Below are positions 2,844-55,285 of a DNA stretch of 64,000 bases, one piece after another; positions within the stretch are counted from its first letter, which is position 1, and the number at the start of each line of letters is the position of its first letter. The notes beneath the pieces are model-generated. The model was not told the DNA's origin, did no database searches, and was given only the letters and a program-made list of their open reading frames with translations. This DNA is from Amycolatopsis granulosa (GTDB lineage Bacteria; Actinomycetota; Actinomycetes; Mycobacteriales; Pseudonocardiaceae). The stretch covers positions 5,084,001 through 5,148,000 of the forward strand of contig NZ_JAANOV010000001.1 in assembly GCF_011758745.1 (NCBI RefSeq). The letters are read 5' to 3'. The position numbers and the translations under genes were made by a program.

Positions 2844-4454
2844 TCACCGGCCCGGGAGCTTGCCCAGCAGCCGCAACCCGACGGTCATCCCCTTGGCCCA
2901 GGCGCTGCCCGGCACGACCCGCGGGGGCCGCAGCCGCACGCCGCGCTGGACGGCGATCGACTGGGCCTCGGTGTACTTCAGCAACCCGTCCCGGCCGTTG
3001 CGCCGCCCCACACCGCTGGCCTTCATGCCACCCATGGGCAGCCCGACGCTGCCGAAGGTCGCCGCGTAGCCCTCGTTCACGTTGACCGTTCCGGCCCGCA
3101 ACCGGGACGCCACCGCCCAGCCCGCCGCGCCGCTGCCGGACCACACGCTCGCGTTCAGCCCGTACTCGGTGTCGTTCGCCCGCTCGATCGCGTCGTCCAG
3201 ATCCGTGTAACCGTAGATCGCCACGACCGGGCCGAACGTCTCCTCGCGGAACAGGGCCACGTCCTCGGTCACGTCCGTCACGATCGTGGGCTCGTAGAAC
3301 AGCGGGCCGAGGTCGGGACGGGCCCGGCCGCCGGTCAGGATCGTCGCGCCCTTGGCCCGTGCGTCCTCGACGTGCGCGCTCACCGCCGCCAGCTGGGCCG
3401 TGCTGGTCAGCGACCCCATGTCGGCGCCGAACCCGAGCTCGGCGCCCAGCCGCAGCGCCCGCGTCCTCGCCACGAACGCCCGGGTGAACTCGTCACGGAC
3501 GTTCTCGTGCACGTAGATCCGCTCGACCGACACGCACAGCTGCCCCGCCGAGGAGAAGCACGCGGTGACGGCGCCTGCCGCCGCCTTGGCGATGTTCGCG
3601 TCCGGCAGGACGACCATCGGGTTCTTGCCACCCAGCTCGAGCGAGTACCCGGTCAGCCGCTTCGCGACCTTCTCCGCCAGCACCTTGCCCGTCGGCGTCG
3701 ACCCGGTGAAGCACAGGTAGTCCGACTCCTCGGCGATCGCGTCGCCGATCTGGGAGCCCCGGCCGAGCACGATGCGCCACACCCCCGCGGGCAGCCCGGC
3801 CTCCTCGGCCAGCTCGTGCAGCCACAGGGCGGACAGCGCCGTCTGGTTGTCGGGTTTCTGCACGACGGCGTTGCCGGCGGCGAGCGCGGGCAGCACGTCC
3901 ATGGCGGTCAGCGCGAGGGGGTAGTTCCACGGCGAGATCACCGCGACGACGCCCTTCGGGTGACGGATCTCGCCTGCCTTCGTGGCCACCGGGATGACCC
4001 CCGCCGCCCGGCGCGCACCGAGGAACTTCGCGCTGTGCCTGCCGTAGTAGCCCGCCACCAGAGCGGTGGCGCTGACCTCGTCGAACGCGTCGATGCGGGC
4101 CTTGCCGGCCTCGACCTGCACCAGGTTGAGGATCTCCTCCTGGCGGCCGAGGATGAGCTCGCCCAGCCGCCGGAGCACGCGTTGCCGCTCGGTCACCGGG
4201 CGCGCCGCCCACGCCCGCTGCGCGGCACGGGCGCGGGCGAACACCGCGCGGACGTCGGGATCGGTGGCCTGGGGCAACGTCACGGTCGGCAGCCCGGTGA
4301 ACGGCGCGGTCACCTCGACCGGGGCGGAGTCCTGCCCGCCCTCGGCGCGGCGGGCGAGCTGCGCGGCCCGGGCGGCGGTGGGTGCGCCGGTGATCCCGCC
4401 GACCGTGGCCGGCCCCGGCGAAGTCTCACCCGTGCTCGCGGTGGTGCTGGTCAT
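2844..4454 (-). CDS. gabD2: Aldehyde dehydrogenase, succinate-semialdehyde dehydrogenase type
   Basis: NAD(P)+-dependent aldehyde dehydrogenase of 536 residues. The closest family I recognise is actinobacterial GabD2, which oxidises succinic semialdehyde to succinate. Visible motifs are the oxyanion/cofactor segment SPWNYPLALT, the general-base glutamate in LELGGKNP (about residue 272), the nucleophile cysteine in SSAGQLCVS (about residue 306) and the C-terminal GMKASGVGRRNG, all at normal spacing. An N-terminal extension rich in Ala/Thr precedes the core. The ATG at 4454 lies in a TGATG junction with a 12-codon leader ORF. The good ribosome site (GGAGGG) stands before that leader rather than before this gene, so translation is probably coupled. 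Substrate assignment is by family resemblance only; another aliphatic semialdehyde is possible. Confidence 0.85.
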   Translation of the reverse strand: MTSTTASTGETSPGPATVGGITGAPTAARAAQLARRAEGGQDSAPVEVTAPFTGLPTVTLPQATDPDVRAVFARARAAQRAWAARPVTERQRVLRRLGELILGRQEEILNLVQVEAGKARIDAFDEVSATALVAGYYGRHSAKFLGARRAAGVIPVATKAGEIRHPKGVVAVISPWNYPLALTAMDVLPALAAGNAVVQKPDNQTALSALWLHELAEEAGLPAGVWRIVLGRGSQIGDAIAEESDYLCFTGSTPTGKVLAEKVAKRLTGYSLELGGKNPMVVLPDANIAKAAAGAVTACFSSAGQLCVSVERIYVHENVRDEFTRAFVARTRALRLGAELGFGADMGSLTSTAQLAAVSAHVEDARAKGATILTGGRARPDLGPLFYEPTIVTDVTEDVALFREETFGPVVAIYGYTDLDDAIERANDTEYGLNASVWSGSGAAGWAVASRLRAGTVNVNEGYAATFGSVGLPMGGMKASGVGRRNGRDGLLKYTEAQSIAVQRGVRLRPPRVVPGSAWAKGMTVGLRLLGKLPGR

Positions 4455-4489
4455 CGGCCCTCACCCGTGCCCGCGATCGTGCTGGTCAT
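4451..4489 (-). CDS. 12-codon leader ORF duplicated from the downstream gene start
   Basis: An ATG at 4489 with GGAGGG three bases upstream opens a 12-residue frame (MTSTIAGTGEGR) ending in TGA at 4453-4451. That stop overlaps the ATG of the aldehyde dehydrogenase (TGATG). The peptide mirrors the start of that enzyme (MTSTTASTGETS). At DNA level the first 35 bases of the two frames are a direct tandem repeat with a few changes. This looks like a local duplication of the start region that left one strong ribosome site in front of a mini-ORF, coupling translation of the enzyme to it. Whether the peptide is made or useful is unknown. Confidence 0.4.
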   Translation of the reverse strand: MTSTIAGTGEGR

Positions 4490-4660
4490 TGACCCTCCTG
4501 ACGCTGGTCGGCAACATTACCGGCGAGTACAGCATACCGACAGTATGGCCGTCCGCCATTTGCGTTCGCGAACGTCACGACCCGGCAGCCGCCCCGTCTC
4601 CCTCTGGGGTGGCCGGCCCGGGCGAGGGCCGGGCCGGCCACCCGGCGCCGCACCGGGCCG
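4490..4660 (-). promoter_or_regulatory. Upstream region of the aldehyde dehydrogenase with two palindromes
   Basis: The region holds CATAC-N5-GTATG (4533-4547), which overlaps a possible minus-strand -10 element (TATGCT), and a perfect 12-base palindrome CGTTCGCGAACG (4563-4574). Either could be an operator for a dimeric repressor. No regulator can be assigned from the sequence alone. Confidence 0.35.
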
Positions 4661-4681: not shown

Positions 4682-4792
4682 GCAAACACGCCGCGGGTGG
4701 CGTGTCTGCTGTCGCGGGCAGCGTGTTCGCCGGTGGGGGCGCAGTGTTTGCTGTTGAGGCGTCGTGTTTGCCGCTTGGGGTGGCGTGTTGGC
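4682..4792. repeat. 21-bp-phased GTGTTYGC repeat cluster, locus A
   Basis: GTGT-beginning octamers start at 4702 (GTGTCTGC), 4723 (GTGTTCGC), 4744 (GTGTTTGC), 4764 (GTGTTTGC) and 4785 (GTGTTGGC), at steps of 21, 21, 20 and 21 bases. One inverted copy (GCAAACAC, 4682-4689) closes the distal side. The cluster begins about 55 bases past the stop codon of the minus-strand TetR gene. The same unit and phase recur at 10834-10906 and 55236-55285, also just downstream of minus-strand stop codons. Confidence 0.7.
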
Positions 4793-10833: not shown

Positions 10834-10906
10834 GCGAACACGCCGGGCGGCGGGCGTGGTGGCTGCTGCGGGCGGTGTGTCGGCCGGTGGGGGGCGGTGT
10901 GTTGGC
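10834..10906. repeat. 21-bp-phased GTGTTSGC repeat cluster, locus B
   Basis: Units start at 10856 (GTGGTGGC, degenerate), 10877 (GTGTCGGC) and 10899 (GTGTTGGC), at steps of 21 and 22. An inverted copy GCGAACAC (10834-10841) lies on the distal side, as at locus A. The cluster fills the space between the convergent DUF3817 and spermidine synthase genes and abuts the stop codon of the latter. Confidence 0.6.
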
Positions 10907-10909
10907 CGC

Positions 10910-11755
10910 TCAGCGGCGCGCGCGGAGGTTGAACGGCACCACGGTCGAGCCACGCAGGGTCTGCGCGTCCAGGGTGGCGGGCGCGCGGGTGCCCAGCCGG
11001 GAGATCATCGCCCCCACCGGGTCGGCCACCTCGTCCACCCGGCCGGACAGGAACGCCCATTCGTGCTCGTCCGAGCCGAAGTACACCGGGGTGGCGAACA
11101 CCTCGGTGAACCGGGCCCACGCGGCGCGCAGCGTGTCGTTGCGCCACAGCGTCGGGCAGCCGCCCTGGCAGCTCACCACGCCGCCGGGCGCGAGCAGCGC
11201 CGCGCACCGGCGCAGGAAATCCGCCCCGTACAACCGGTTGTGCTGGGCGCCGGCGTCGGTGCTCTCGTCCGGCAGGTCGATCACCACCACGTCGTAGCCC
11301 CCGTCGGACGCGTCCACGAACGCGAAACCGTCCGCGTAGTGCATCCGCACCGGTCCCTCCCCGCGCTCGGCCGCCTCCAGCTCCTCGACGGTGTAGCCGT
11401 AGGGAAGCAGCTCCGCGCACGCTCGCACCGCCACCCGGTCGAGGTCCACGTGGTCCACCAGCGTCGCACCGAACTCGACCGCCAGCCGGCTCGCCACCCC
11501 CTCGCTCGACCCGATGATCAGCACCCGCCGCACCGCGTCCGCCAGCAGCATCGCCGGCACCATCAGCGCCTCGTGGTAGACGAGCTGGCTCGCCTCGGTG
11601 CTCTGCCGCTCGTCGTCGCAGAACAGCGACACTCCCTGCGCGGTGCGGCCGATCAGCACCTGCTGGAAACCGGTGTGCTCGTCGAACAGCACCTCCGAGA
11701 CGTCCCACACCCGCGACAGCCCGGGGCCGAGGGACTCAACGACTCGCCGCGACAT
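10910..11755 (-). CDS. speE: Spermidine synthase-like aminopropyltransferase
   Basis: A 281-residue protein with the Rossmann fold of spermidine synthases: glycine-rich loop VLIIGSSEGVASRL (about residues 79-92), acidic DHVDLD, and the DVVVIDLPDES motif (about residues 156-166) corresponding to the catalytic D.. D region. Known reaction: transfer of the aminopropyl group of decarboxylated S-adenosylmethionine to putrescine, giving spermidine. It overlaps the upstream speD by 20 bases and follows an ornithine decarboxylase gene. This gives putrescine, decarboxylated SAM and the transferase in one operon. The usual GGGDG loop is GSSEG here, so the exact acceptor amine is less certain. Confidence 0.85.
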   Translation of the reverse strand: MSRRVVESLGPGLSRVWDVSEVLFDEHTGFQQVLIGRTAQGVSLFCDDERQSTEASQLVYHEALMVPAMLLADAVRRVLIIGSSEGVASRLAVEFGATLVDHVDLDRVAVRACAELLPYGYTVEELEAAERGEGPVRMHYADGFAFVDASDGGYDVVVIDLPDESTDAGAQHNRLYGADFLRRCAALLAPGGVVSCQGGCPTLWRNDTLRAAWARFTEVFATPVYFGSDEHEWAFLSGRVDEVADPVGAMISRLGTRAPATLDAQTLRGSTVVPFNLRARR

Positions 11756-55235: not shown

Positions 55236-55285
55236 GTGTTCGCCGCTCACGGCAGCGTGTTCGCCGCTCCGGTCGGTGTGTTGGC
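55236..55285. repeat. 21-bp-phased GTGTTSGC repeat cluster, locus C
   Basis: Units start at 55236 (GTGTTCGC), 55257 (GTGTTCGC) and 55278 (GTGTTGGC), at exact 21-base steps, each followed by CGC or CG. The cluster sits about 40 bases past the stop of minus-strand fadA5. Same unit, phase and position relative to the gene as loci A and B; no distal inverted copy is seen here. Confidence 0.7.

Follow-up and report, generated by a model that had tools for sequence, protein, structure and literature searches.

Three arrays of a short direct repeat, here termed A, B and C, are found in the window, i.e., in the whole 64,000-nucleotide stretch of Amycolatopsis DNA that was analysed. Each consists of copies of the octamer GTGTTSGC, or variants of it (the 'core'), spaced at approximately two helical turns, with one core plus its adjoining spacer making up one 'unit'. 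Array A lies between an aldehyde dehydrogenase gene (minus strand, start 4454) and a TetR gene (minus strand, end 4847). Array B separates two convergent genes, that is, a DUF3817 gene (end 10804) and a speE-like, or spermidine-synthase-like, gene (end 10910). Array C has on one side a methyltransferase gene (minus strand, start uncertain, either 55178 or 55250) and on the other a thiolase gene (minus strand, end 55322), and is at most 58 bases from the former, depending on the start codon chosen. Besides following one minus-strand gene, arrays A and C thus lie upstream of a further one as well. The labels used for the speE-like and thiolase genes in the initial annotation are speE and fadA5. 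Coordinates are collected in Table 1.

Table 1. Array features, with positions counted from the first nucleotide of the window
Feature	Position	Strand	Basis or remark
Array A, inverted unit GTGTTTGC, 1 mismatch	4682..4689	-	12-bp RNA stem with first plus unit
Array A, cores 4702, 4723, 4744, 4764, 4785	4702..4792	+	octamer scan, Tandem Repeats Finder
Array B, inverted unit GTGTTCGC, exact	10834..10841	-	octamer match
Array B, cores 10856, 10877, 10899	10856..10906	+	octamer scan, Tandem Repeats Finder
speE-like stop codon, inside the final array B unit of 21 bp (10899-10919)	10910..10912	-	
Array C, cores 55236, 55257, 55278	55236..55285	+	octamer scan, Tandem Repeats Finder

The initial annotation had placed the octamer, with variants, at steps of about 20 to 22 bases at these three loci, and its coordinates and variants are borne out. 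Steps are 21, 21, 20 and 21 bp in array A, where the core at 4702 has two mismatches, those at 4744 and 4764 one each, and those at 4723 and 4785 none; they are 21 and 22 bp in array B, with one mismatch each at 10856 and 10877 and none at 10899; and they are 21 and 21 bp in array C, all three cores of which are exact. Exact copies of the octamer number 22 in the window, as compared with 5.9 expected (sd 2.5; maximum of 13 among 100 shuffles). Scanning the window for at least two units at 20-22-bp steps, with at most one mismatch and at least one unit exact, recovered only loci A, B and C, all three of them intergenic, and Tandem Repeats Finder, in a window list of 26 rows, reports these as repeats of period 21, 22 and 21, respectively. 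From array end to stop codon the distances are 54 (TetR), 3 (speE-like) and 36 (thiolase) bases, in agreement with the limit of about 60 bases proposed earlier, and the inverted copies proposed for loci A and B are found at both. As a separate observation, the aldehyde dehydrogenase gene carries at its start (window positions 4425-4497) a tandem duplication of 35 bp, and here the sister species is approximately one copy shorter.

Arrays of this kind are not peculiar to the window. Across the whole 5.62-Mb genome from which the window was taken (G000), a three-unit pattern yielded 14 matches versus 0 for a reversed control, and a two-unit pattern allowing at most one mismatch yielded 117 versus 1, i.e., the spacing of the octamer is non-random genome-wide. 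Exact GTGTTSGC pairs at 21-bp steps form, by my own grouping, 27 clusters, 12 of which are in convergent spacers, 15 in co-directional spacers and 0 in divergent spacers (p = 0.0012 and 0.00015), this against a background, in the G000 stretches examined, of 84 convergent, 257 co-directional and 132 divergent spacers. The bias towards positions downstream of genes that the initial annotation had proposed is thus seen, with gene calls here coming from a simple codon-usage caller such that single gene borders may be off. The biggest cluster among the G000 stretches read is at G000:C1:5192716-5193668 (pair 114), which is a 953-bp spacer full of units, mostly in a single orientation, and which is 1184 bp long in the sister species.

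Placement counts cover Amycolatopsis genomes, and location at gene ends is seen in four of them. In the sister species (G012), stretches examined have arrays in 2 convergent, 4 co-directional and 0 divergent spacers (n=6). In G009 the equivalent numbers are 10, 4 and 2 (n=16), counting arrays of at least three units, excluding one array lacking a clear spacer, and with some stretches having been picked for their arrays. In A. acidicola (G008) they are 15, 5 and 0 (n=20 distinct spacers), for which 19 of at least 27 loci were read, with one dropped for a missing flank, and two spacers were added from stretches of sequence, from which one further spacer was dropped and two were duplicates; many of these loci were chosen for carrying arrays. 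Eight A. acidicola loci with one flank cut off stand outside that tally, the left gene being known in seven; in six of those seven this gene is on the plus strand and its stop precedes the array by 23-60 bp, locus L087 being the exception, and at L101 the right gene alone is known. Six loci in A. arida consist of 3 convergent, 1 co-directional and 1 divergent, plus 1 within a called gene.

The step between units is close to invariant. Where consecutive exact cores on the same strand are at most 30 bp apart, 198 of 201 spacings are 21 bp, the others being 20, 26 and 28; part of this sample was retrieved with search patterns in which the step is either fixed or bounded. In a contiguous 400-kb stretch of the sister species, chosen as a match to the window region, all 20 of 20 spacings are 21. 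A motif-free test, in which spacers with a strong self-match were counted for every lag between 10 and 40 in six genomes, found lag 21 three times in G000, 9 times in G012, 17 times in G009, 7 in G008 and 8 in G011, versus 5, 0, 1, 10 and 4, respectively, for all other lags combined. Lag 21 thus is the commonest single lag in five of the six genomes, with the remaining one, G005, providing no self-matching spacer among the 12 tested. How strict this phase is may be appreciated by considering that neighbouring array spacers differ at 34% of positions. Substitutions outnumber indels by 4.7 to 1 (1091 versus 232) across 115 array-free orthologous spacers, sampled at a length difference of at most 60 bp and an identity of at least 60%, and from that ratio approximately 39% of neighbour pairs would be expected still to be at 21. 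The 21-bp phase, that is, is far stricter than neutral drift predicts.

What is conserved along with the phase is, in particular, the core. In 81 middle units, for which only the two outer units were required to match, the core differs from neighbouring units at 4.9% of positions and the spacer at 29.9%; as those outer units were themselves selected for their cores, a fairer core value lies around 10%, roughly double, and the gap between core and spacer is then threefold. The claim that only octamer and phase are conserved therefore holds for core over spacer, but the spacers nonetheless are not free: a G at position -6 from the core is 98% conserved and several further spacer positions hold 0.8-1.3 bits. 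A conserved core, steps of whole helical turns and a less conserved spacer together are what distinguish a phased protein-binding array, and all three are found here. The strict two-turn phase and the conservation of the core both suggest that a putative protein recognizes the arrays, and the two taken together with position at gene 3' ends are consistent with such a protein lying along one helix face, which is a fit with what the initial annotation had suggested for a protein that stays putative.

Plain minisatellites, generated by replication slippage and recognized by no protein, would be a quite improbable description of the same arrays. Tandem Repeats Finder does call the three loci repeats of period 21-22, and copy number indeed differs at the same locus between sister species, with locus C having 3 units in the window's genome but 9 in the sister species. 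Units evidently do duplicate, therefore, and to that extent the earlier dismissal of slippage went too far. Copying alone, however, leaves core and phase unexplained: the core is kept over the spacer in units that played no part in detection, indels are far too few for the substitutions present, and the same step with related cores recurs in other genomes of the family. Coding repeats of seven residues were considered as well and are unlikely, as related genomes have 22-bp arrays and as arrays are mostly intergenic (three of three in the window, 21 of 22 in G009).

Orientation is less regular than is the step. A same orientation behind minus-strand genes had been claimed and holds at loci A, B and C, but a consistent strand relative to gene stops does not hold in general: for arrays within 25 bp of a stop in G000, G012 and G009, 16 are one way and 14 the other (n=30), and at the speE junction the units of G000 and G012 are in near-identical register yet opposite orientation. 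By contrast, arrays that face one another have a polarity, which is minus-then-plus in 16 of 18 pairs from G000, G012 and G009 and instead plus-then-minus in 16 of 17 pairs from A. acidicola (p = 6e-7 for the polarity contrast). Facing arrangements account for 15 of 53 clusters, with the other 38 being single-orientation (15 of 23 in G000), in a folding sample that omits clusters larger than 320 bp.

Facing units raise the question of RNA structure, that is, of whether arrays are bidirectional intrinsic terminators in which opposite units would give rise to a long RNA hairpin when transcribed from either strand. I consider this unlikely. Facing arrays do fold strongly (mean z of -3.6 in G000, n=8; -11.1 and -8.8 by strand in G009, n=5), the prevalence of one polarity per genome is in keeping with such a role, and the 12-bp stem of locus A has a z of -2.0, with 8 of 200 shuffles folding equally well. 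Loci B and C, however, fold weakly (z of -1.0 to -1.9), and single-orientation arrays, with mean z of +0.4 to -1.2, fold on average as their shuffles do and are outdone by 18 convergent spacers that lack arrays (mean z -1.9). A stable hairpin in every copy, as expected of intrinsic terminators, thus was not found across the 53 clusters, and a hairpin is not the general function; nor does a hairpin need a 21-bp phase. Two candidate stems within the unit lack compensatory pairing: for one hairpin per unit, with GTGTTS as loop, arm pairing is no greater than shuffled in seven unit groups (49 tests, maximum z +2.0), and for a stem joining positions 6-10 with 16-20 there is no pairing excess in four genomes (maximum z +1.9). 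Rfam gave no match across 144 kb including the window. Of the earlier suggestion of a 3'-UTR or termination element, then, position at gene 3' ends stands whereas an RNA hairpin or terminator as general role does not.

Beyond the window's genome, the core is spelled differently in different species. Arrays of GAGTTGGC are found in G003, G006, G008 and G013, of GAGTTCGA in G003, of GAGTTCCC in G011, of GAGTTCCA in G004 and of GTGTCCCA in G015. The step in these relatives is mostly 21, and is 22 in G014, G128, G184 and one place in G011 (e.g., GTGTTCGACACTCGGGTCCTGA). A combined pattern has matches in 65 of 249 Pseudonocardiaceae genomes, representing 21 of 46 genera, with at least five matches in 32 of those 65; many of the others have one or two, which may be due to chance or to coding sequence. 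Reversing this pattern as a control still produced about 50 matches, spread over 12 genomes, so that the control is not a clean one here; G015, the arrays of which fit the reversed pattern, accounts for 16 of these. In a further scan, the matches listed include Amycolatopsis acidicola, A. arida, Saccharomonospora, Prauserella, Crossiella and Actinophytocola. A narrower scan found no match in 51 of 61 genomes and the combined pattern none in 184 of 249, and as most relatives thus have no pattern match, the arrays are dispensable for the family. Neither core was matched in 24 genomes from other families of the order.

Two side observations belong here. Three-unit matches number 266 in G126 and 173 in G239, well above G000. 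The matches listed in that further scan also include loci from cyanobacteria and other phyla (L044, L095, L111, L116 and others) at which GTGTTSGC occurs three times with a 21-bp step; for 24 listed loci outside of Pseudonocardiaceae, 10 are in open reading frames of at least 900 bases, and these triplets probably are unrelated, i.e., seven-residue protein repeats.

Comparison of G000 with its sister species, for which median protein identity is 97%, indicates how arrays come and go. Arrays are present in either species at 8 of 319 orthologous adjacent gene pairs, at 7 of these in both species and at one in G012 only, with pair 237 supplying the clean presence/absence difference. On this comparison arrays probably are gained and lost slowly. 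The junction of array B can be followed further. The arrangement seen in 15 of 19 Amycolatopsis genomes is a 35-bp tail-to-tail overlap of the speE-like and DUF3817 genes. The two are separated instead by a gap that an array fills in G000 (105 bp), G012 (110 bp) and G009 (169 bp), and in G002 by a gap of 60 bp without an array. Based on a two-gene tree, the overlap appears to be older and the array to have been gained once or twice, the support of the deciding branch being 0.72.

The reading towards which I lean, with a confidence that falls just short of evenly balanced, is that arrays are rows of putative sites at which a sequence-specific DNA-binding protein would dock, and that these rows act as gene-end boundaries. 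One 21-bp unit would be one site, made up of the core, as Y-GTGTTSGC, plus the G six bases upstream. Given two helical turns per unit, neighbouring proteins would share a face of the DNA and would be able to touch, i.e., binding might be cooperative. A row so bound, behind genes that are chiefly convergent, would constitute a boundary, whether as a roadblock or as a topological barrier that halts RNA polymerase, and this barrier would keep two tail-to-tail genes apart. Duplication would add units, units would also be lost, and blocks could flip without consequence for the protein row. The variation of core spelling by species is as if a recognition protein and its sites may have changed together. 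The presence of arrays in both sister species at seven of eight junctions is counted in favour of arrays as boundaries; the array-free gap of G002 and the two divergent array spacers of G009 are counted against, as are the lack of pattern matches in most relatives, the mixed placement of the A. arida loci and the 232-bp element described below.

The same arrays may be viewed instead as a selfish repeat, with a trans-acting transposase or recombinase reading the 21-bp units and spreading or amplifying them, survival being best behind genes as that is where they would do least harm, and the core being kept for the enzyme rather than for host need. This I rank as a close rival to arrays serving as boundaries, that is, as a possibility of real weight, if one that I would sooner bet against. 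The patchy distribution among relatives would be in keeping with it, as would the difference at pair 237 and the near-identity, judged by eye, of two composite blocks (L163 and L172) from separate loci of G009. In addition, G003 and A. acidicola possess a dispersed element of 232 bp that ends in inverted repeats of 16 bp (CTAGTGTTTCGTGATC type) and encloses 21-bp units (e.g., L340 at about 1287-1516, with similar loci among L332-L361). Its ends have 30 matches over these two genomes, and 18 of 27 loci that match one end have both, about 216 bp apart, with all 18 of those holding at least two GAGTTGGC units. This element supports mobility of at least the GAGTTGGC branch. In the window's genome, however, the G003 terminal repeat has but one match, and that is away from arrays.

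Other findings also weigh against selfish spread. Among array-free orthologous spacers, length differences of at least 30 bp are found in 7 of 25 convergent, 25 of 86 co-directional and 16 of 57 divergent ones. They are no rarer between divergent genes, so plain tolerance of added DNA leaves the 3' bias unexplained. As most array junctions are common to the sister species, any movement must be slow, and an enzyme acting on the units was not found. A search for PF01797 (Y1/HUH transposase) in 19 Amycolatopsis genomes yielded one partial match, in G011; the other 18, which include G000, G012, G009 and G008, gave none.

To return to arrays as boundaries, a broader version can be stated for Pseudonocardiaceae as a whole, though as such I regard it as doubtful. 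In that version, a putative protein would coat arrays between convergent genes, thereby creating a barrier to transcription and supercoiling that is blind to orientation, with the word rewritten from species to species (GTGTTSGC, GAGTTGGC, GAGTTCCC, GAGTTCGA, GTGTCCCA) while the two-turn step is held constant.

Certain known repeats invite comparison. The DNA uptake sequences of Neisseria are short words that have species-specific spellings and often are found as inverted pairs behind genes; they do not form fixed-step tandem arrays, however, and nothing in the Amycolatopsis arrays suggests uptake. The REP/BIME sequences of enterobacteria are short extragenic repeats which occur at many sites, frequently between convergent genes, and which alternate in orientation and are bound by host proteins (PMC1525189). 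Amycolatopsis arrays resemble these in being short extragenic repeats at many sites, at convergent junctions and in varying orientations, with preference for convergent junctions being a REP/REPIN trait that is present here. REP units, though, are palindromes linked with Y1 (RAYT, TnpA-REP) transposases (PMC1525189), whereas the array unit is non-palindromic and repeats head to tail every 21 bp, and the Y1 family is the one with no match in nearly all Amycolatopsis genomes, the window's included.

BrickBuilt of Porphyromonas gingivalis is a minisatellite of 23-nt units within a MITE-like intergenic element (PMC4596501), and G003 and A. acidicola likewise have a minisatellite inside an element, the one of 232 bp. 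In contrast to BrickBuilt, the G003-type end is not at arrays in the window's genome, and arrays keep their core while the spacer drifts, have species-specific spellings and favour gene 3' ends. The TAACTGA direct repeats of Beggiatoaceae similarly are intergenic direct repeats of a short word, are patchy among relatives and have had a binding protein proposed for them; they are mostly found just upstream of putative start codons (PMC4679880), however, rather than behind stop codons as in Amycolatopsis. In the literature searched, and judging by titles and the openings of abstracts, there is no description of the present arrays.

As far as I am aware, how high-GC actinobacteria keep tail-to-tail genes from colliding is poorly understood. 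The repeat described here provides a word that can be assayed for binding, a phase held strictly at two turns, and junctions at which the sister species can be seen to differ, along with one junction at which an array separates genes that in relatives overlap. Should the repeat prove to be selfish, then it would be one that possesses a strict helical phase but without the usual REP transposase. If instead a protein reads the repeat, then the family would represent a natural series of site words that have changed between species.
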